A stretch of 64,000 bases of DNA from Prosthecobacter dejongeii (GTDB lineage Bacteria > Verrucomicrobiota > Verrucomicrobiia > Verrucomicrobiales > Verrucomicrobiaceae): NCBI RefSeq assembly GCF_014203045.1, contig NZ_JACHIF010000001.1, forward strand, positions 1,054,001 through 1,118,000. Reading direction: 5' to 3'. Every line of letters begins with the position of its first letter. Within the stretch, counting starts at the first letter, position 1. Shown in pieces: positions 26,320 to 35,498 of the stretch. The position numbers and the translations under genes were made by a program. The notes below the pieces were generated by a model that saw only the letters and a program-made list of their open reading frames with translations, searched no databases and was not told the origin of the DNA.

Positions 26320-29277
26320 TTAAGGCAGCGGTTGAAGCAGGCTAAATCCGCCCGAGAGGATGGGTGTAGCGGTGGCCTTTTCATTGAGTTGCGGAATCTG
26401 AGGCAGCAGGAAGTAGCCCACCGCCTTCACAGAACCATCCGCCAGGCGCACTACCTGTCCCACCAAGGGGACTTTAGCCCGGGTAAGCGGTGGACTGGTT
26501 TCGACCAACGTGAAGCTGCCACTGACTTTGCCAGTGCCTGGGGTAATGGTGAGCGCTACTTTACCCGGATTTTCCGTGATGATCGGCAACACGACTTTGT
26601 TCGCCGCGGTGAAGGTGAATTGAAGCCTCGGATCTGTCGCCGAGAAGGATAATCCACCCTCGGTTAAATCCAAAGTTACATTGCCCACGGTGGGCAAGCC
26701 AAGGATGGCTTTGGTCTTGCTGGATTCAGCCAAGTAAGCCCCTGCTGCCGTGAGTGGCACATCTCCAAAAGAGGCAGGATAGAGACGTGATACCGTGACC
26801 GGTTTCACCCAACTCAAGCCACCGAGGATGACATTGTCCTCAAAACCCGCCCCCTGAAGGTCCAGCAGCAGCTCGCCCTGCACGCTGCCTAACTTTTTAT
26901 AAAGCGGAGTGTAAACTGCCAATTGCCCCTGCGAGCTGAGAAAGCTGCTGCTCGTAATGGTCTCCCCATCGGCCGTTTTACCCAGCAGGATTAAGGTGCC
27001 TGCAGGGGTGACACTGAAAGTGGCAAACCCTGTGCCGTGAGGGATGGTGAGCGAACTCCGATCCCTCGCTTCTTGAAGGTCCAAGGCCAGACTGTAGTAA
27101 CCCACATAAGCGGTCGCGGGCTGGTCTCGCACATGCCAGGCATTGCGCCAGCCATTCACCGCCGCAGCACCAAGCTGGCCCGTCACTTCACCTGTGCCAG
27201 CTTCCAGATTGAGGGTAAGCGTCTGCCCACCTAGAACCACCGAGATATGAGGCGCGGAGGCATTCAAGAAACCCTTCGCTGAATAGGCCATGCCTGCTGC
27301 TGCTGCACCACTGGTGGGAAGGGCCCCGGTGACCTTCAAGGTATAAGCCCCCAGGGAGGTGGTGGTGAGGGAGAAGGTACCGCCTAGACCTTTATTAGCT
27401 CCCGCTTCACGCTTGATCAAACCCGTAAAGTTCCCGACCTGATGTACGTCCAAAGCATTCACCACCCACGGTGCTACGACTACCGCACTCACCCCACCCG
27501 CATTGCTAGCACGCACTTGCACCTCATAGCGCCCCGGCACCGTGGCACGGCCTTTGATGACACCCGTGCTAGGCACAAAAGTGAGGCCCTTCGGCAGCCC
27601 GGTAATGGCAAAAGTTTTGGGGTAGTTTGAAGCCGTCACGATCTGATTGACCAAGGCACCCAAGGTGGTGGGAGAAAACGCCACCGGATCCACGATCGGA
27701 GCCAGATAAGTGGCAGAAACGGGCAACGTCAGCGATTTCACAAGAACCACCGGACTGCCATCCGTCAAACGCACGGTGAAGGTGGCACTGCCTGACGCTG
27801 TGGGTATTCCCGACAACACGCCGGCTGGGCTGAGCGTGATGCCTGCTGGCGGTGCGCCCGAGGCGATCTCCCAGGTGTAGGGACCCGTCCCGCCGGTGTG
27901 CTGCAAGCTGTGAGAAAACGCCACCCCTTGAACAGCCGTGGGTAGCACAGCCGTGCGGATGACGAGATCCGTCAACGGAAGCGTGAAAACTTTGGTCGCG
28001 ACCCGTGCCTGCACATCAGCCACCTCCACGGTGAAGCTGTTGCGGCTGGAAGATTGCGGCGTGCCAGATAACAGGCCTTGATCACTCAACGTTAGACCTG
28101 CTGGCAAGACGCCCTCACTGACGCGCCAAGTGTAGGGACCCGTCCCGCCGATGACGCTCAAAGACGTGCTGTAGATGTTGCCCACGAAACCGGTGGCCAA
28201 AGTGGAGGCTGTCAAAATCGTCGGCTCCGCCGGAGCCGTAACGGATACCGTGACCGTGCTGGAATCTACTCCGCCAGGCAAGGCGGCGTTACTCACTCTC
28301 ACCCAATAGCTGGTGCTGGTAAGCAAGCTCGGGGTGGTGAAGGAGGCGGCATTGGTACCGACTGGGGTGGTGATGAGCCCACTCACACCCTGATACCACT
28401 GGTAAGTTAGAGGGCCATCCCCAGTGGCTACCACAGAGAGGGTCGTGCTTTGCCCGCTGTTGACCTGAGTTGAAACAGGTTGCTCCGCGATGGCTGCTGG
28501 CTGCAGCACAGTGACTGTGGCCGTATTTGACTGTGCCCCACCAGGGTTTGCCGCGTTGCTTACTTTGACCCAGTAACTCTTCGTCGCCGTGAGATTCGGG
28601 GTGGTGAAGCTTGCCGCATTCGTCCCTACGGGTTGGGTGGTGACACCACTGGCCCCTTCATACCATTGATAAGTCAACGGTGCGCCACCGGTTGCCGAAA
28701 CGGTTAAAGTGGCTGTGCTGCCGCTGCTGATGGTAGTCGAGGCCGGGTGCGTGCCAATGGCAGCGCCTGCACCGGCAGAGACTTGCAGAGTAAAGCTGGC
28801 CTGCGCAGATCGCCCGCTGAAGTTGGCATTTTCCCACCCTCGAATGGTGACCACATGGTTGCCTGTCTGGGTCGTCGTCCCTGTCAGCGTGGTCGTTTTA
28901 CTTTTAGCATTCGCGAGCGTTAGGCCACTCGGCAAAGTGCCGCTGGAAACAGACCACGACTGAGGGGTGTGCCCACCACCACCCACGATCTGAAAGACCC
29001 CTGCGAGATTGGTTCCTGCCGTCACTGGCACGGTGGCAGAGCCTGCGGAAGGGGCCACTTGGCTGACGGAGGTGGCCCCTGCCACACTGTCAAAAGCCCC
29101 CAGCCCGACCACACTGGTAATGACGAACTTCGTCGTATCCACAAAGGCTGCTGAAGTCAGTAACTTGGCCTCTGGGAAAAGCATCTGCACAATCGGCGAA
29201 CGCTGAAACAGGAGCAGCAATGAGCTGTATCTGGAAAAGGGTTTCTTGAACTTATCGATCACGGAAAAGAGATTCAT
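26320..29277 (-). CDS. Large Ig-like/cadherin-like surface protein with candidate flavinylation motif
   Basis: A protein of 985 residues from the ATG at 29277 (MNLFSVIDKFKKPFSR). There is no classical N-terminal signal; a hydrophobic stretch lies at about residues 42-60. Directly after it comes DSVAGAT (residues 63-69), close to the D-x-x-(S/T)-G-A-(T/S) motif that ApbE modifies with FMN. Then follow bacterial Ig-like repeats with TYQWYEGASGV and SYWVKVSNAANPGG (two copies, about 175-345), two to three putative-Ig/cadherin-like repeats with GGTGPYTWRVSEGVLPAGLTL and SGTP (about 355-560), and a C-terminal region of duplicated beta domains (FTGLIKREAGANKGLGGTFSL). It is the last gene of the ApbE-DUF4266 run, 37 bp after the DUF4266 gene. 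It may be the extracellular carrier of the flavin. Confidence 0.8.
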   Translation of the reverse strand: MNLFSVIDKFKKPFSRYSSLLLLFQRSPIVQMLFPEAKLLTSAAFVDTTKFVITSVVGLGAFDSVAGATSVSQVAPSAGSATVPVTAGTNLAGVFQIVGGGGHTPQSWSVSSGTLPSGLTLANAKSKTTTLTGTTTQTGNHVVTIRGWENANFSGRSAQASFTLQVSAGAGAAIGTHPASTTISSGSTATLTVSATGGAPLTYQWYEGASGVTTQPVGTNAASFTTPNLTATKSYWVKVSNAANPGGAQSNTATVTVLQPAAIAEQPVSTQVNSGQSTTLSVVATGDGPLTYQWYQGVSGLITTPVGTNAASFTTPSLLTSTSYWVRVSNAALPGGVDSSTVTVSVTAPAEPTILTASTLATGFVGNIYSTSLSVIGGTGPYTWRVSEGVLPAGLTLSDQGLLSGTPQSSSRNSFTVEVADVQARVATKVFTLPLTDLVIRTAVLPTAVQGVAFSHSLQHTGGTGPYTWEIASGAPPAGITLSPAGVLSGIPTASGSATFTVRLTDGSPVVLVKSLTLPVSATYLAPIVDPVAFSPTTLGALVNQIVTASNYPKTFAITGLPKGLTFVPSTGVIKGRATVPGRYEVQVRASNAGGVSAVVVAPWVVNALDVHQVGNFTGLIKREAGANKGLGGTFSLTTTSLGAYTLKVTGALPTSGAAAAGMAYSAKGFLNASAPHISVVLGGQTLTLNLEAGTGEVTGQLGAAAVNGWRNAWHVRDQPATAYVGYYSLALDLQEARDRSSLTIPHGTGFATFSVTPAGTLILLGKTADGETITSSSFLSSQGQLAVYTPLYKKLGSVQGELLLDLQGAGFEDNVILGGLSWVKPVTVSRLYPASFGDVPLTAAGAYLAESSKTKAILGLPTVGNVTLDLTEGGLSFSATDPRLQFTFTAANKVVLPIITENPGKVALTITPGTGKVSGSFTLVETSPPLTRAKVPLVGQVVRLADGSVKAVGYFLLPQIPQLNEKATATPILSGGFSLLQPLP
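29071..29091 (-). other. DSVAGAT candidate FMN-acceptor motif in the Ig-like protein
   Basis: These codons encode Asp-Ser-Val-Ala-Gly-Ala-Thr. The ApbE target motif in NqrB, NqrC and RnfG/D-type proteins is Asp-x-x-(Ser/Thr)-Gly-Ala-(Thr/Ser), with FMN joined to the final Thr/Ser. Here only the fourth position (Ala) departs. Nearness to a hydrophobic segment means it could instead be part of an export signal. Confidence 0.45.
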
Positions 29278-29314
29278 AAGACTTGGATTTTGAAGGGAAA
29301 AAGATCTGTCAGGG

Positions 29315-29542
29315 TTAATTGCATCCGCAGCCGCCGCCACCTACCCCACCGCCGCCGTAACTGGCCTCGCGAGAAAAGTAGGCATGATTGGTCATCGCCA
29401 GAAACAGCGTATCGCGCTCTGGGCTCATCAGAGGATTGGCAAGGTTTCCCCTCTCAAAAGGCCTCACGCGCACCAGGTGGCTGGAGCAACTGCTCAAGGT
29501 GGCGGCCACAGTGACCGCTAAGAAAAGTAAACGAGGTTTCAT
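29315..29542 (-). CDS. DUF4266 lipoprotein with Cys-Gly-Cys tail
   Basis: A 75-residue lipoprotein: signal MKPRLLFLAVTVAATLSSCSS with lipobox LSSC (Cys19), then VRPFERGNLANPLMS, a middle helix (RDTLFLAMTNHAYFSREAS) and a glycine-rich end GGGGVGGGGCGCN. The order ERG-LA-P-M, H-x-x-x-SREA, glycine tail with CGC is the DUF4266 pattern. This family occurs beside DUF3570, ApbE and thioredoxin genes, as it does here. The terminal cysteine pair may bind metal, exchange disulfides with the neighbouring TlpA protein, or carry a modification; none is proven. It lies 22 bp after the tlpA-like gene. Confidence 0.85.
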   Translation of the reverse strand: MKPRLLFLAVTVAATLSSCSSHLVRVRPFERGNLANPLMSPERDTLFLAMTNHAYFSREASYGGGGVGGGGCGCN

Positions 29543-29563
29543 CTGGATCAGGGAAGTGAGGGT

Positions 29564-30052
29564 TTATTGGGCGAGCAGTTCCTCGATCTCTTTCACGTAT
29601 TCGGCTTCCGTCTTTGCGCCTTTGAAGCCCTTATGGATGTGGCGGATTTTGCCATCTCGCCCGACGAGGTAGCTAGTCGGCATGGTGGGCGGATTAAAAA
29701 AGGCGGCCGCCTTCTGCTGAGTGTCGTGAACCAGGGCGAAACCTACGGGGTTCTTCGCGGCAAAGGCCTGGTACTTTTCCGCTTCTTCATCTACCCCGAT
29801 GCCGATGATGACGAGACCTTTCTTAGCATAGGTATCGTGCAGGCGAGCCATCGTAGAAAAGGATGCTTTGCATGGCGCGCACCAGGAGGCCCAGAAATCG
29901 ACCAGGACGACTTTTCCCGCTGTTTTAGGCAGCGTTGCGCTGGGCAATAGACTTTTGAGGTCCGGCAGGGTTGAGCCCGTGGCGGGTTCGCCTGCAAAGC
30001 TCATGGTTAGGCCGAGACACAGGGTGCTGATAAGAGTGACGATGTATTTCAT
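29564..30052 (-). CDS. TlpA-family periplasmic thioredoxin
   Basis: A 162-residue exported thiol-disulfide oxidoreductase. The start at 30052 gives a signal peptide (MKYIVTLISTLCLGLTMSFAG); an upstream extension to 30289 would read through the ApbE gene in another frame and is rejected. The domain has VVLVDFWASWCAPCKASF (active-site CAPC), VIIGIGVDEEAEKYQAFA and MPTSYLVGRDGKIRHIHKG with the cis-proline. TlpA proteins keep periplasmic cysteines reduced, for example in metal-site assembly. Position between apbE and the Cys-tailed DUF4266 lipoprotein makes the latter the obvious partner. Confidence 0.9.
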   Translation of the reverse strand: MKYIVTLISTLCLGLTMSFAGEPATGSTLPDLKSLLPSATLPKTAGKVVLVDFWASWCAPCKASFSTMARLHDTYAKKGLVIIGIGVDEEAEKYQAFAAKNPVGFALVHDTQQKAAAFFNPPTMPTSYLVGRDGKIRHIHKGFKGAKTEAEYVKEIEELLAQ

Positions 30053-30078
30053 AGGATGACTAAGGTTGGGTGTTTGAG

Positions 30079-31056
30079 TTAAGCTGACTGGACTTGATAC
30101 TGACGAAAATGACGGGTGGCTGTGACTCCCTGCTCCCCCTGCAGACAGGCCTCCACACCTGGGGCGCTTTCTGCGAACTGGAGACCCTCCTTTCGCCCCA
30201 GCACAAAGACACAGGTGGAGTAAATGCCGGCGATGAGGGAAGTGGGTGCCACCACCGTCACCGCACGCAGCCCATGGCGCACAGGCCATCCCGTACGGCG
30301 GTCTAGGATATGGCCATAGCGCACGCCTCCGTGCTCAAAGCGCCGGGCATAGTCGCCTGATGCGCACACGGCATAACCTGAGACGGCAAGACCTCCGATG
30401 CAGCGGTCCGTCTGCACGCCATCCTGAATGCCTACATGCCAGAACGGATGCTGCCCATTCCCGCCCAAGGCCAGAATGTCACGCCCCAGATCCACCAGGA
30501 TATCCACGATGCCGTGGCGACGAGCGATGGCGATGACTTGATCCACCGCATGCTCTTTGCCAAAACCTCCGAAGTCGAGGCCCATGCCCGTTCTGGGGAG
30601 GTAGATCTTCCCAGGCTTGCGCTCCACTTCTTTCCAGTTGGACAAGGTGAGGGCCTTCTGCACTTCAGCCTCCAGCGGCAGCCGCTCATGCACTTTCTTC
30701 CAATCCCAGAGCTGGATCAGCGGCAGCATGGCGGGATCGAGCAAACCTTCTGTTAGGCGGTGCATGGCCTCACCCATGTCGAGCATCTGCTCCATCTCCG
30801 CATCAATTTCGACCCAGCGCTGCCCGGCCGCCTGATTGATTTGTGATAGCAGCGAGTCCGGTCGAAAACGCGAAAACTTGGCTTCAAATTCGCCTAACCA
30901 GCCCAGCGCTTCTGCTAGGAACTTCAGGGCCGCTTTCTGGTCCTCGCAGCGAAACTGGATGACACAGGCGGTGCCCATCGCCTTGAAGGCTAGGCTGCGC
31001 ACGCCTCGGCTATCTGGAGGGATGACGGCAGGTGTGGATGATGCGGCTTTAGACAT
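30079..31056 (-). CDS. apbE: FAD:protein FMN transferase
   Basis: ApbE enzymes move FMN from FAD to a Thr/Ser of exported target proteins. The 325-residue protein shows FKAMGTACVIQF, EFEAKFSRFRPDSLLSQIN (the E-x-x-x-S-x-x-x-x-S-x-x-x-x-N pattern), GMGLDFGGFGKEHAVDQV, DILVDLGRDILALGG and the C-terminal RYGHILDRRTGWPV with the metal/FAD-binding HI-DPxTG-like block. It has no obvious N-terminal export signal (MSKAASSTPAVIPPDSRG), so it may act in the cytoplasm or be exported atypically. It follows the DUF3570 gene by 8 bp. Two candidate targets with DxxxGA(S/T) are encoded in the same run. Confidence 0.95.
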   Translation of the reverse strand: MSKAASSTPAVIPPDSRGVRSLAFKAMGTACVIQFRCEDQKAALKFLAEALGWLGEFEAKFSRFRPDSLLSQINQAAGQRWVEIDAEMEQMLDMGEAMHRLTEGLLDPAMLPLIQLWDWKKVHERLPLEAEVQKALTLSNWKEVERKPGKIYLPRTGMGLDFGGFGKEHAVDQVIAIARRHGIVDILVDLGRDILALGGNGQHPFWHVGIQDGVQTDRCIGGLAVSGYAVCASGDYARRFEHGGVRYGHILDRRTGWPVRHGLRAVTVVAPTSLIAGIYSTCVFVLGRKEGLQFAESAPGVEACLQGEQGVTATRHFRQYQVQSA

Positions 31057-31064
31057 GATCGTGT

Positions 31065-32221
31065 TTAAAATTGGATGTTCACACCAAAGGTCCAGATATT
31101 GGCCGTGGGGTAGGCCGCTGCGGGGGCTTGGTGAGCGCCCCAGCCACTCATGTCGTAATGCTCATAGGCTGCGGAAAGGGCGATGTTTTCCGTCAGCCGA
31201 TAACGTGTCTTGATGCCTAGACTCAGTGTGTTCATCGAGGAAAGACGATAGTCTGCCGAGTAGTGAGGCCCCTTTCCCGCAGGGTATTCTTCAGGCGTGG
31301 CGTTCGGCACCTCATCCAAGGTCCGATAAAAAAAATCTGCCGCGTTTTGGCGATAGTATCGGCAGAAAGGTGTGACCTCCAGCCGGTCCCACAGACCTTG
31401 CCGCCACTCCACCTGAAGACTCTGTGAGAAGACGCCGTAGTCATCCTGAGACAGTCGCAACGTGGCATCCAGGGCAGCCTGCACTTTGTCAAAGTAATGC
31501 GTGCCCTGCATTTGCAAAACACCCCGCAGCCGGCTGTCGGGTCGGTTCTCCCGGTATAAATTGACTGTGGGAATGTCTATCATTCCGCCCGCACCATCTG
31601 GCAATGAAACGATGTCCGTTCTTTGAATGGCTTTATACGGATCGTTCAGGTAACCTTCGCTATAACCGACAGTGAGATTGGCCGCCAAGATGGTGTTTTT
31701 ATCCAGCAACTGGGTGAGGCCCATGAAAAGGTCATAACTTCGTTTCGTTTGGTCTTCGAGGCCGAAGACCTTCACCGAATCGTCCAAATAATTGAACCCA
31801 AACGCCAAGGTGGTATTTTTCTGATTCAGTTCCCAGCGGTCGCTCAAGGATATTCCATTCGAGAGGTAGTCACTCTCTTTGCTGCGAGATAACTCCAGTT
31901 CCACGCGGTGATCACCGATCTGCTGGGATAACGCACCGAGGATGCCATTGCGCACATCTTCCAGGTCCGCCAGGAAAGGCTGCACCCCCCCGGCAATGCC
32001 CCAGTGGGTGAAGCCCCACTGATGGCATCTGACAAAAACTGGTACCGAAAGACGGTCTGATCCGTGAGGTACATCTCCCCCCGGAAATACCACGACTCCA
32101 CATTGATCCGGCCATTGGATTCATCATAGATCTGGTAACTGGTATCGAACTTCAAACGCTCTGCGGCCTCCACTGCCAAGGAAGGCAAAAGCAAGGGTGC
32201 CAAAGCGAGAGGTTTTCTCAT
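31065..32221 (-). pseudogene. DUF3570 outer-membrane-barrel-like protein, frameshifted in a G7 tract
   Basis: Two overlapping frames together encode one DUF3570 protein. The first frame starts MRKPLALAPLLLPSLAVEAAERLKF (signal peptide) at 32221 and reads RINVESWYFRGEMYLTD, FLSDAISGASPTGALPGG. The second frame, from about 31990 to 31065, continues VQPFLADLEDVRNGIL, DHRVELELSRSKESDYLSNG, ELNQKNTTLAFGFNY and ends in alternating strands to NIWTFGVNIQF, typical of a beta-barrel with a terminal aromatic residue. The join lies at seven consecutive G (minus strand; 31985-31991); eight G would restore one frame. Either a real lesion, slipped-strand phase variation, or a sequencing error. The DAISGAS segment resembles an ApbE acceptor motif. 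It is 8 bp upstream of apbE and follows the RND pump gene. Confidence 0.8.
32009..32029 (-). other. DAISGAS candidate FMN-acceptor motif in the DUF3570 protein
   Basis: These codons encode Asp-Ala-Ile-Ser-Gly-Ala-Ser (residues 65-71 of the DUF3570 product), an exact fit to the D-x-x-(S/T)-G-A-(T/S) consensus for covalent FMN attachment by ApbE. It lies just before the G7 frameshift site and 1 kb upstream of the apbE gene itself. Confidence 0.55.
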
Positions 32222-32312
32222 GCCAGGCTTTCGAAGAAAGGACTTCCAAGAGGAGTCTGGCGATGCAGAAGGAGGAGTGCACATGATGGGAAAAAATTAA
32301 GGTGTGTCTGAC

Positions 32313-35300
32313 TCACGGCGCATGCACTAGAGATAATGCGAGCACCTCTGCGGGCTGTGTGGAATGACGTGCAGCGGGCTGGTCCTTCATTCCCCACCGA
32401 TAAAGGAGAGGCAGCAGGAATAAGGTGAGGAAAGTGCTACTGACGATGCCGCCGATAACCACCGTCGCGAGCGGCCGCTGCACCTCGGCACCCGCTCCCT
32501 CACTTAAGGCCATCGGTATAAAACCCAAGCTGGCCACCAGAGCCGTCATGAGCACGGGACGCAGTCTTTGCAGGCTGCCTTCCGCCACAGCAGCTTCTGC
32601 GCTGCGGCCCTCATGGCGCAGTTGGTTGAAGCAACTGATCAACACCACGCCATTCAATACTGCCACCCCACACAGTGCGATGAAACCAATAGCCGCACTG
32701 ATGCTGAACGGCAAACCCCGCAACCATAAAGCCAAAACACCACCCGTGATCGCGAGAGGAATGCCGGTATAGATGATGAGCGTCTGCATCACGCTTTTAA
32801 ACGTGGCGTGGATAAGCACGAAGATCAGCACCAGAGCCAGTGGCACCACAATGGCCAGCCGTGCGCGGGCCTCCTGCAAGTGCTCAAACTGCCCTCCAAA
32901 ATCAATTCGGTAACCCTCAGGTATCTGCATCGTTTCTGCGATCTTTTGACGCGCCAAAGTCACATAGGCCTCCGAGTCGGTCCCCCCTGCCAAATCCACA
33001 TTCAGACCCACTCGGCGGTGGCCCTCTTCACGACCGATGGCATCCACTTGAGGCACCTCCACGAAGCTGGCCAAGCGCCCCAGCGCGATCAAGCCGCCAT
33101 CCTGCGTGCGCACAGGGAGGGCCTTCATCACCTCCGGATTATTGCGCAGAGATTCTGGCAGTCGCACCACGATGCTGCGACGACGATTATTCTCCATGAG
33201 CGTGCCTGCCGTATGCCCAGCCATGGCAGTGGTGATGGCCGCATTCACTTCCGCCGCTTCGACATTGAACTTCAGCATCGCTGCACGATCCACCTGGATC
33301 TCCAGCACAGGCACCCGCCCCTGGGTCTCAAACTCCGCATTGTTTGTGCCGGGCAGCCCCTCCAGCAGCGCCTTCACCTGCCCGCCGATCTTTTCCATCC
33401 TGTCGTAATCCTCACCAAAAATGCGCACGGCCAAATCCGCTCGGGAACCTTCCAGCATCTCGTTGAAACGCATTTGGATAGGCTGGGCAAAATCATAGTC
33501 TTGTTCTGGCACCTCCCTGGCCAGTTCCTCACGAAGGAGTTCCGCCAGGCGGTCTCGGCTCACGGGTTGTCCCTTTTCTTGACGCCATTCAGACTGCGGT
33601 TTGTAAAAGACGTAGAGGTCATATTCTCCCGGAGACATCGGGTCTGTGGCCACTTCACTGGTGCCCACACGGGCAAAAGTGCGGGTGACTTCAGGCACTT
33701 TGTTGATGAGGTATTGCTGCGTTTTGATGCAGCGCTCCAGGGAAGTTTTAAGGCTGGTATTAGCCGGCTGGTAAACCATGGCTGTCCAAGAACCTTCATT
33801 GAGGGTAGGGACGAACTCCTGCTTTAAGCTCATGAATATGAGACCTGTGCCCCCCAGCAGCACCAGAACAGCAGCCACCACTCCCCAGCGCGTTTTCCAA
33901 GCCAACCCCAGCAGCGGTGCGTAGGCGGCCTTGGCTCCGCGCATGAAGAAGTTATCCTTCTCAGAGATATGACCGCTGAGCAGCAGGGAACAAAGCGCAG
34001 GCATCAGCGTTAAAGACAAGACCAAGGCGCCGCCCAGAGCCAGCATCACCGTGATGGCCATGGGATGAAACATTTTCCCCTCGATTCCGGTCAATGCCAG
34101 GATGGGCAAGTAAACCAGAGTGATGATGAGCACCCCAAAGAACATGGGGCTCCCCACCTGCTGCCCTGCCTCCCTCACAGCGGCCAAGCGCTCCTTCGCC
34201 GTCAATCGCCGGCCCAGGGAATGCTGCTTTTCTCCCAACACACGCACGATGTTTTCCACCATCACGACCGCCCCATCAATGATGAGACCGAAATCCACCG
34301 CTCCGAGTGACATCAGATTCCCGGAGACTCCCCCAAAGGTCATGCCGATGAGTGCGAACAAGAACGACAGTGGAATGGCAAGCGCCACGATAAGGGCCGC
34401 ACGCCAGTTGCCTAACAAAAAGAGCAATACACCAATGACGAGAATAGCCCCTTCAAACAAGTTGTGCTTCACCGTATCAATCGTGCGGTCCACCACCTCG
34501 CTGCGCGCATACTGAATTCGCAACTCTAGCCCTGAAGGCAGTTTCTTTTGCAATTCGGCTAGTTTTTCTTCCACCCGCTTGCTGATGATGCGGCTGTTTT
34601 CCCCCACCAGCATCATCACCGTCCCCAGCACAGCTTCTTCCCCGTTCTCGACTGCACAGCCAGTGCGCACATTGCTACCGATGCTCACCTCTGCGAGGTC
34701 TTTTACGCGGATGGGTTCCACCCCCGCTGCAAACTTCACAGGCAGGTTGGCAATGTCATCGGCGCTGGCCACCTTCGTCACGCCGCGGATGAGCATGCGG
34801 TCTGTGCCACGCTCGATCACACCGCCGCCGGCATTGTCCACATTCTGACCGATGATGACTGCCAACTCACTGAAGGTTAGACCTGCCTGTGCCAGCGATT
34901 CAGGCTTTGGCAGCACCACCAACTGTCTTTCATAACCGCCACTGCTGTTGATCTCCGCCACGCCCGGTACCGTACGGAGGAAAGGCTTCACGATGTAGTC
35001 ATGAGCTTCCCTTAACTCCATGAGCTGGCGCTCTCTGGGTTGCTTACGAGCCGGGGCCTCCTTTTGAAAATCCAGGGTGTAGTAAAGGATCTCACCTAAG
35101 CCAGTGCTGATGGGCGACATCTGCGGACTGAGACCCGGCGGTAATTCCACCTGCACGAGACGCTCACTGACGAGCTGCCGTGCCCGGAAGATATCTGTGC
35201 CATCGCGAAAAACCAGCGTGACCTGCGAAAGTCCTGACTTTGTGAGCGAGCGAAACTCTTCCACCCCTTGGATACCGGCGAGTGCCAGCTCCAAAGGATA

Positions 35301-35498
35301 CGTCACGAGTTTTTCCGTCTCCTCGGGAGCCAGTCCAGGCACCGCCGTATTCACCTGGACTTGAGTGTTGGTGATGTCTGGCACGGCATCCACGGGCAGA
35401 TGCAGCGCGGAAAAGATCCCGGCAGCCAAGAGCAGCAAGGCCCCCATGATGACGAGAAAGCGATTTTTAAGTGAGAATTCGAGAATGGAAGTGATCAT
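32313..35498 (-). CDS. czcA: CzcA-type heavy-metal RND efflux pump
   Basis: A 1061-residue inner-membrane proton/metal antiporter of the HME-RND family with 12 transmembrane helices and two large periplasmic loops. Helix 4 carries VDFGLIIDGAVVMVENIVR, with the two acidic residues typical of CzcA/CnrA (Zn/Co/Cd) rather than the AIGAMVDAAIVMIEN pattern of CusA. Other marks are LPVDAVPDITNTQVQVNT at the N-terminus, GLTFSELAVIIGQNVDNAGGGVIERG and AAIGFIALCGVAVLNGVVLIS. RND pumps normally need a periplasmic adaptor (CzcB) and an outer-membrane channel; a channel gene is present at 36157 but no adaptor gene is in this run. It is 32 bp downstream of an ECF sigma gene. Confidence 0.93.
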   Translation of the reverse strand: MITSILEFSLKNRFLVIMGALLLLAAGIFSALHLPVDAVPDITNTQVQVNTAVPGLAPEETEKLVTYPLELALAGIQGVEEFRSLTKSGLSQVTLVFRDGTDIFRARQLVSERLVQVELPPGLSPQMSPISTGLGEILYYTLDFQKEAPARKQPRERQLMELREAHDYIVKPFLRTVPGVAEINSSGGYERQLVVLPKPESLAQAGLTFSELAVIIGQNVDNAGGGVIERGTDRMLIRGVTKVASADDIANLPVKFAAGVEPIRVKDLAEVSIGSNVRTGCAVENGEEAVLGTVMMLVGENSRIISKRVEEKLAELQKKLPSGLELRIQYARSEVVDRTIDTVKHNLFEGAILVIGVLLFLLGNWRAALIVALAIPLSFLFALIGMTFGGVSGNLMSLGAVDFGLIIDGAVVMVENIVRVLGEKQHSLGRRLTAKERLAAVREAGQQVGSPMFFGVLIITLVYLPILALTGIEGKMFHPMAITVMLALGGALVLSLTLMPALCSLLLSGHISEKDNFFMRGAKAAYAPLLGLAWKTRWGVVAAVLVLLGGTGLIFMSLKQEFVPTLNEGSWTAMVYQPANTSLKTSLERCIKTQQYLINKVPEVTRTFARVGTSEVATDPMSPGEYDLYVFYKPQSEWRQEKGQPVSRDRLAELLREELAREVPEQDYDFAQPIQMRFNEMLEGSRADLAVRIFGEDYDRMEKIGGQVKALLEGLPGTNNAEFETQGRVPVLEIQVDRAAMLKFNVEAAEVNAAITTAMAGHTAGTLMENNRRRSIVVRLPESLRNNPEVMKALPVRTQDGGLIALGRLASFVEVPQVDAIGREEGHRRVGLNVDLAGGTDSEAYVTLARQKIAETMQIPEGYRIDFGGQFEHLQEARARLAIVVPLALVLIFVLIHATFKSVMQTLIIYTGIPLAITGGVLALWLRGLPFSISAAIGFIALCGVAVLNGVVLISCFNQLRHEGRSAEAAVAEGSLQRLRPVLMTALVASLGFIPMALSEGAGAEVQRPLATVVIGGIVSSTFLTLFLLPLLYRWGMKDQPAARHSTQPAEVLALSLVHAP

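Follow-up and report, generated by a model that had tools for sequence, protein, structure and literature searches.

The window, by which we mean the whole 64-kb stretch of DNA that was analyzed, carries a gene cluster that reads, in minus-strand order, CzcA-type RND pump (32313-35498), DUF3570 protein, ApbE, TlpA-like thioredoxin, DUF4266 protein, and Ig-like protein. The DUF3570 protein is represented by two fragments, an N-terminal part with a signal peptide and a flavinylation motif in a first frame (31844..32284; PF12094, E=6.5e-10) and a C-terminal barrel part in a second frame (31065..32093; PF12094, E=7.8e-61). These are followed by ApbE, the FAD:protein FMN transferase (30079..31056), a TlpA/thioredoxin-like exported protein with a WCAPC motif that was identified with Pfam (29564..30052), and a small lipoprotein-like DUF4266 protein (29315..29542; PF14086, E=3.5e-18), whose C-terminal end, GGGGCGCN, contains a CxC. 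The last gene, defined by its open reading frame and Pfam matches, encodes an Ig-like protein of 985 aa with He_PIG, Ig_7, and Ig_3 domains (26320..29277), which is our candidate ApbE substrate. A CzcA-type RND pump gene adjoins the DUF3570 cluster in many genomes besides the window (L042, L044, L046, L052, L053, and L055), hinting at a metal-related role. The C-terminal end of the DUF4266 protein in the window (GGGGVGGGGCGCN) is closely similar to that of its Vibrio homologue (GGSGVGGGGCGCN). The host genome has two operons of the DUF3570-ApbE-Ig type; in the second, the Ig gene lies on the other side, before DUF3570, and its heptad is D-R-VAGAT.

The initial annotation had proposed two ApbE flavinylation sites at this locus, and both were found where it placed them: DAISGAS, a motif of the known DUF3570 type (PMC8238504), is encoded by reverse-strand codons 32009..32029 (GATGCCATCAGTGGGGCTTCA), and DSVAGAT, in the Ig-like protein, by reverse-strand codons 29071..29091 (GACAGTGTGGCAGGGGCCACC). 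It had also described both sites as lying early in exported proteins of the apbE operon, which is correct as to their placement, but the DUF3570 gene is frameshifted and the export of the Ig-like protein is plausible rather than obvious from its sequence, since only a weakly hydrophobic segment precedes the motif. As a background set, we translated the 64-kb window in six frames and kept every stop-to-stop frame no shorter than 100 aa (42,163 residues); in this set, the strict pattern D..[ST]GA[ST] occurs once, in DUF3570, and the relaxed pattern D...GA[ST] occurs four times. Taken alone, the DSVAGAT match is therefore weak, and its significance comes from its conservation across relatives.

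The two parts of the DUF3570 gene are split right after the motif, at a run of seven G (C on the plus strand; 31985..31991, minus strand), and both fragments exceed the PF12094 gathering score. The gene is intact, in one frame, in the nearest species (L042, with 95% identity over the Ig N-terminus), and the other copy in this genome (L012) is likewise unbroken; the frameshift may be either a sequencing error or a true mutation. The motif positions had been expected to be invariant, and among 55 aligned DUF3570 homologues this holds for the Gly and nearly so for the Asp, but the Ala is often Ser (GSS/GST); in the Opitutales clusters, DUF3570 reads D[STA]I[AST]GATP, with the Asp kept. ApbE-associated DUF3570 proteins have been reported to possess two conserved [S/T]GA[S/T] motifs, and in the Chlorobium luteolum protein flavinylation was abolished only with both serines mutated (Meheust et al. 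2021, PMC8238504). We searched for a second motif and found one site only in this clade, while in some other genera an extra motif is present in an insertion loop. The cluster of DUF3570, ApbE, thioredoxin, and DUF4266 was described in the same study. The flavinylation of DUF3570, which according to the initial annotation would give a function to a family of unknown role, was already published in 2021 (PMC8238504), and here it is a confirmation of published work.

For the second DUF3570 copy, which is intact, AlphaFold predicts a barrel of about 18 strands (mean pLDDT 93), and the Foldseek search with this model returned porins and other outer-membrane barrels. The motif occupies residues 72-78 of the model, where the third strand gives way to a 20-residue loop. 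Given the usual rule that short turns are periplasmic and long loops are on the outside, the model places the motif on what would be the outer side of the outer membrane.

The most likely start of the Ig-like protein is the ATG at 29277 rather than the GTG of the longer open reading frame, and with this start the heptad comprises residues 63-69, with the predicted FMN site on Thr69. Its Pfam matches are to Ig-type models only, while alignments delimit a conserved N-terminal region of about 80 residues (residues 1-80, 29038..29277) that, by sequence comparison, defines an undescribed family. Using this N-terminal part alone as the query within the genus Prosthecobacter, we found it in 17 of 18 genomes bearing DUF3570 and in none of 30 lacking it; in the sole exception, the contig ends before the place of the Ig gene. 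The Ig gene is directly behind the cluster in all 17. A profile search at the level of the order (387 genomes) recovered further copies in three more families, and cluster genes lie beside the Ig gene in 36 of 40 fetched loci, three of the other four being contig ends. One genus has the rearranged order DUF4266-Ig-DUF3570-ApbE with the Ig gene retained, which indicates that the linkage survives rearrangement. Tandem pairs of Ig-type genes occur in one cluster in L053, L126, L141, L263, L268, and L274, some with an SAAT-weakened motif in one copy.

The linkage extends to other families of the class. ApbE positions were compared with the profile matches across 23 genomes, and by our count about 22 of the 32 N-terminal matches that cover the motif lie within 4 kb of apbE, against a chance expectation of approximately 0.5% per match (about 2-3 ApbE genes per genome of ~4 Mb), or far less than one in total. 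A few copies are unlinked (L152, L252, L255, and L265). We also looked for the N-terminus in genomes without ApbE: 22 of the 23 genomes have an ApbE, and the match in the last one misses the motif. A search of the phylum gave no convincing match outside the class, so that the family appears, as far as it was searched, to be confined to Verrucomicrobiia.

In the alignment of 58 Verrucomicrobiales copies, the heptad follows D-x-[VI]-[AST]-G-A-[TS] with no exception, the D, G, A, and T/S being present in 58/58 (T in 52 and S in 6). The codons of the invariant Gly are used almost equally (GGT/GGA/GGC/GGG, 16/15/14/13), a saturation which argues that the residue is held by selection. Position 4 is A in 35 copies, S in 19, and T in 4, that is, the canonical Ser/Thr is present in 23/58, and the Ala of the window protein thus reads as a local form only. 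We considered whether Ala at this position disqualifies the Ig site and rejected the idea, because relatives have Ser/Thr and because the DUF3570 of the Opitutales, a member of a proven substrate family, also has Ala there (DSIAGATP). A relaxed consensus, DxxxGA[T/S], has been published (PMC10722498). Distant-family copies often carry the textbook motif, DAVSGAT or DAVSGAS, beside apbE, while SAAT replaces SGAT in three distant copies. One degenerate copy, DSVPGVT in a frame of 129 aa, adjoins apbE.

The expected invariance of the Ig site is thus complete in Verrucomicrobiales, and the terminal position never changes elsewhere, being Thr or Ser in all of the 100 copies compared in Verrucomicrobiales and other groups. 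It fails for the Asp: of the 42 further copies, 22, from the Opitutales and some others, have His, Asn, or Gln in its place; the Opitutales motif often reads NSLAGAT or HSLAGAT, with the GAT kept. The possibility that loss of the Asp tracks loss of the apbE linkage was rejected, because the copies without Asp are mostly linked and the unlinked L252 and L255 keep it. On the importance of this residue the literature disagrees: a review (PMC12052999) reports one substrate whose flavinylation was little affected when the Asp was changed to Ala, while the motif Asp is called essential elsewhere (PMC10722498), and consequently its loss does not settle the matter.

The enzyme of the cluster is assigned to ApbE on the basis of its profile match (PF02424, E=6e-70) and its matches to solved FMN transferases in the PDB (E down to 1.7e-32), although it departs from the canonical metal site. 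In solved ApbEs, the Asp of A-D-A-x-[ST]-T is a metal ligand, a feature outside the profile definition. This acidic ligand is absent in the cluster ApbEs, in which K-E and A-G replace the canonical K-G and A-D in 84/84 readable sequences; Asp285 of V. cholerae is listed as catalytic (review, PMC12052999). We looked for a signal peptide or lipobox in the cluster ApbEs and saw none, a short polar segment leading into the fold, whereas a different ApbE from the same genome (L211) has a hydrophobic segment with a Cys at its end. The KE/AG pattern recurs, likewise with no signal peptide, in a Vibrio replicon that carries TlpA, DUF4266, DUF3570, ApbE, and a DsbD-like protein. The lack of a signal peptide together with the G-to-E exchange after Lys and the D-to-G exchange is seen in the window (30079-31056) and in L316 (5133-6014). 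The simplest reading of these features is a DUF3570-type ApbE subfamily that would act in the cytosol.

Taken together, the conservation of the heptad and its linkage to apbE lead us to consider that the Ig-like protein is probably flavinylated at its N-terminal site, and to regard the family, as a well-supported prediction, as a further family of ApbE substrates. The initial proposal that one or both proteins carry covalent FMN accordingly stands on published site mutants for DUF3570 (PMC8238504), and on strong comparative support, at the level of prediction, for the Ig-like protein. Against the latter weigh the loss of the Asp in other groups, the SAAT and DSVPGVT copies, the few copies unlinked to apbE, and the unusual metal site of the cluster ApbE. 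The main rival is that the heptad is a cleavage site: a long export signal would be cut by signal peptidase I between Ala68 and Thr69 (D-S-V-A-G-A|T), with no flavin attached, and the apbE link would reflect a shared redox operon. The segment VITSVVGLGAF, with a mean hydropathy of 2.1, runs up to Asp63, A-G-A|T lies at a suitable distance from it and would be acceptable to signal peptidase I, small residues occupy -3 and -1 in nearly all copies, and [AS]GAT is kept without the Asp in Opitutales. The model of Ig residues 1-165 also agrees with it: the part up to residue 60 has helices predicted at low confidence, the heptad falls in a loop, and an Ig-like domain predicted with good confidence begins at residue 70. 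In a fold search, the matches to the Ig model were mainly antibodies and other folds of the Ig type, and no E value fell under 0.001. However, cleavage does not require that Asp at -6, Gly at -2, and Thr/Ser at +1 be invariant, and in the same clusters the likely signal-peptide end of TlpA conserves only the Ala at -1, the signal-peptide regions of TlpA and DUF3570 having no conservation like that of the Ig heptad. The stretch preceding the motif, hydrophobic in the window protein, is weakly so in relatives and barely so in other families (in L156, no 11-residue window exceeds 1.6), and distant copies have the canonical DAVSGA[T/S] beside apbE. We judge cleavage without flavinylation to be unlikely.

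The two processes could also be combined, as a variant of the explanation we prefer: a cytosolic ApbE would add FMN to the precursor, and signal peptidase would then cut before the modified Thr, so that the mature protein would begin with the residue bearing the FMN. The absence of a signal peptide in ApbE, the fit of the site to both rules, and the reported function of flavin tags at N-termini (PMC12052999) are in line with this sequence of events, but cleavage could be impeded by so bulky a group as FMN at +1, and we give this variant only an outside chance. Finally, a chance resemblance, with DSVAGAT an ordinary sequence and DUF3570 alone modified, might be suggested by the four occurrences of the relaxed pattern in the window, but it is already contradicted by the 58/58 conservation in the alignment, the codon saturation, and the apbE linkage, and is highly improbable.

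With flavinylation of the Ig-like protein as the preferred reading, the locus would represent the known DUF3570-ApbE-TlpA-DUF4266 cluster, which in Verrucomicrobiia may have gained a further dedicated substrate consisting of the N-terminus of about 80 residues and Ig-like domains. Without an export signal, ApbE would act in the cytosol, before export, transferring FMN from FAD to Thr69 of the Ig-like protein and likewise to the motif Ser of DUF3570. The exported Ig-like protein would then hold its FMN between the hydrophobic N-terminal segment and the first Ig-like domain, while DUF3570 would form a barrel in the outer membrane and carry its FMN on a loop where a strand reaches the outer side. 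Both flavoproteins could be fed by the thiol pair of TlpA and DUF4266, and electrons might pass across or onto the outer membrane. This full scheme, in which a new Ig-domain substrate family and DUF3570, both modified in the cytosol by a distinct ApbE subfamily whose metal-binding acid has changed position, form a flavin-based electron route at the outer membrane, is put forward tentatively, as a possibility that we consider somewhat short of even.

Few families of ApbE substrates are known, and the Ig-like family is a concrete candidate for another that can be tested at little cost; it would also provide a role for the N-terminus conserved among Ig-domain proteins of Verrucomicrobia that otherwise lack annotation. 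Provided that this ApbE acts in the cytosol, covalent flavins would cross the inner membrane already attached to their proteins, unlike in the usual periplasmic flavinylation.

In the literature searched, a single paper joins ApbE, flavinylation, and Verrucomicrobia, and by its title and abstract it deals with another phylum; Verrucomicrobia are not mentioned in the main text of the study that described clusters of DUF3570, ApbE, a thioredoxin-like protein, and DUF4266, with or without DsbD (PMC8238504). Those clusters share with the one studied here the gene set, the DUF3570 motif, and the CxC end of DUF4266, but here there is an extra Ig-like protein with a conserved motif of its own. The substrates FMN-bind, NqrB/RnfD, DUF2271, Flavodoxin_4, and FMN_red (PMC8238504, PMC11334425) have the same type of site, D-x-x-[S/T/A]-G-A-[T/S], and the same linkage to apbE, while in the Ig-like protein the site belongs to an extension at the N-terminus that immediately precedes an Ig-like domain, instead of lying inside a flavin-binding fold. 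Klebsiella pneumoniae likewise has an ApbE without a signal peptide, a cytosolic enzyme that acts on a soluble fumarate reductase (PMC12052999); in our case, by contrast, DUF3570 is of the outer-membrane type and the Ig-like protein is probably exported, so that the modification would have to precede export.
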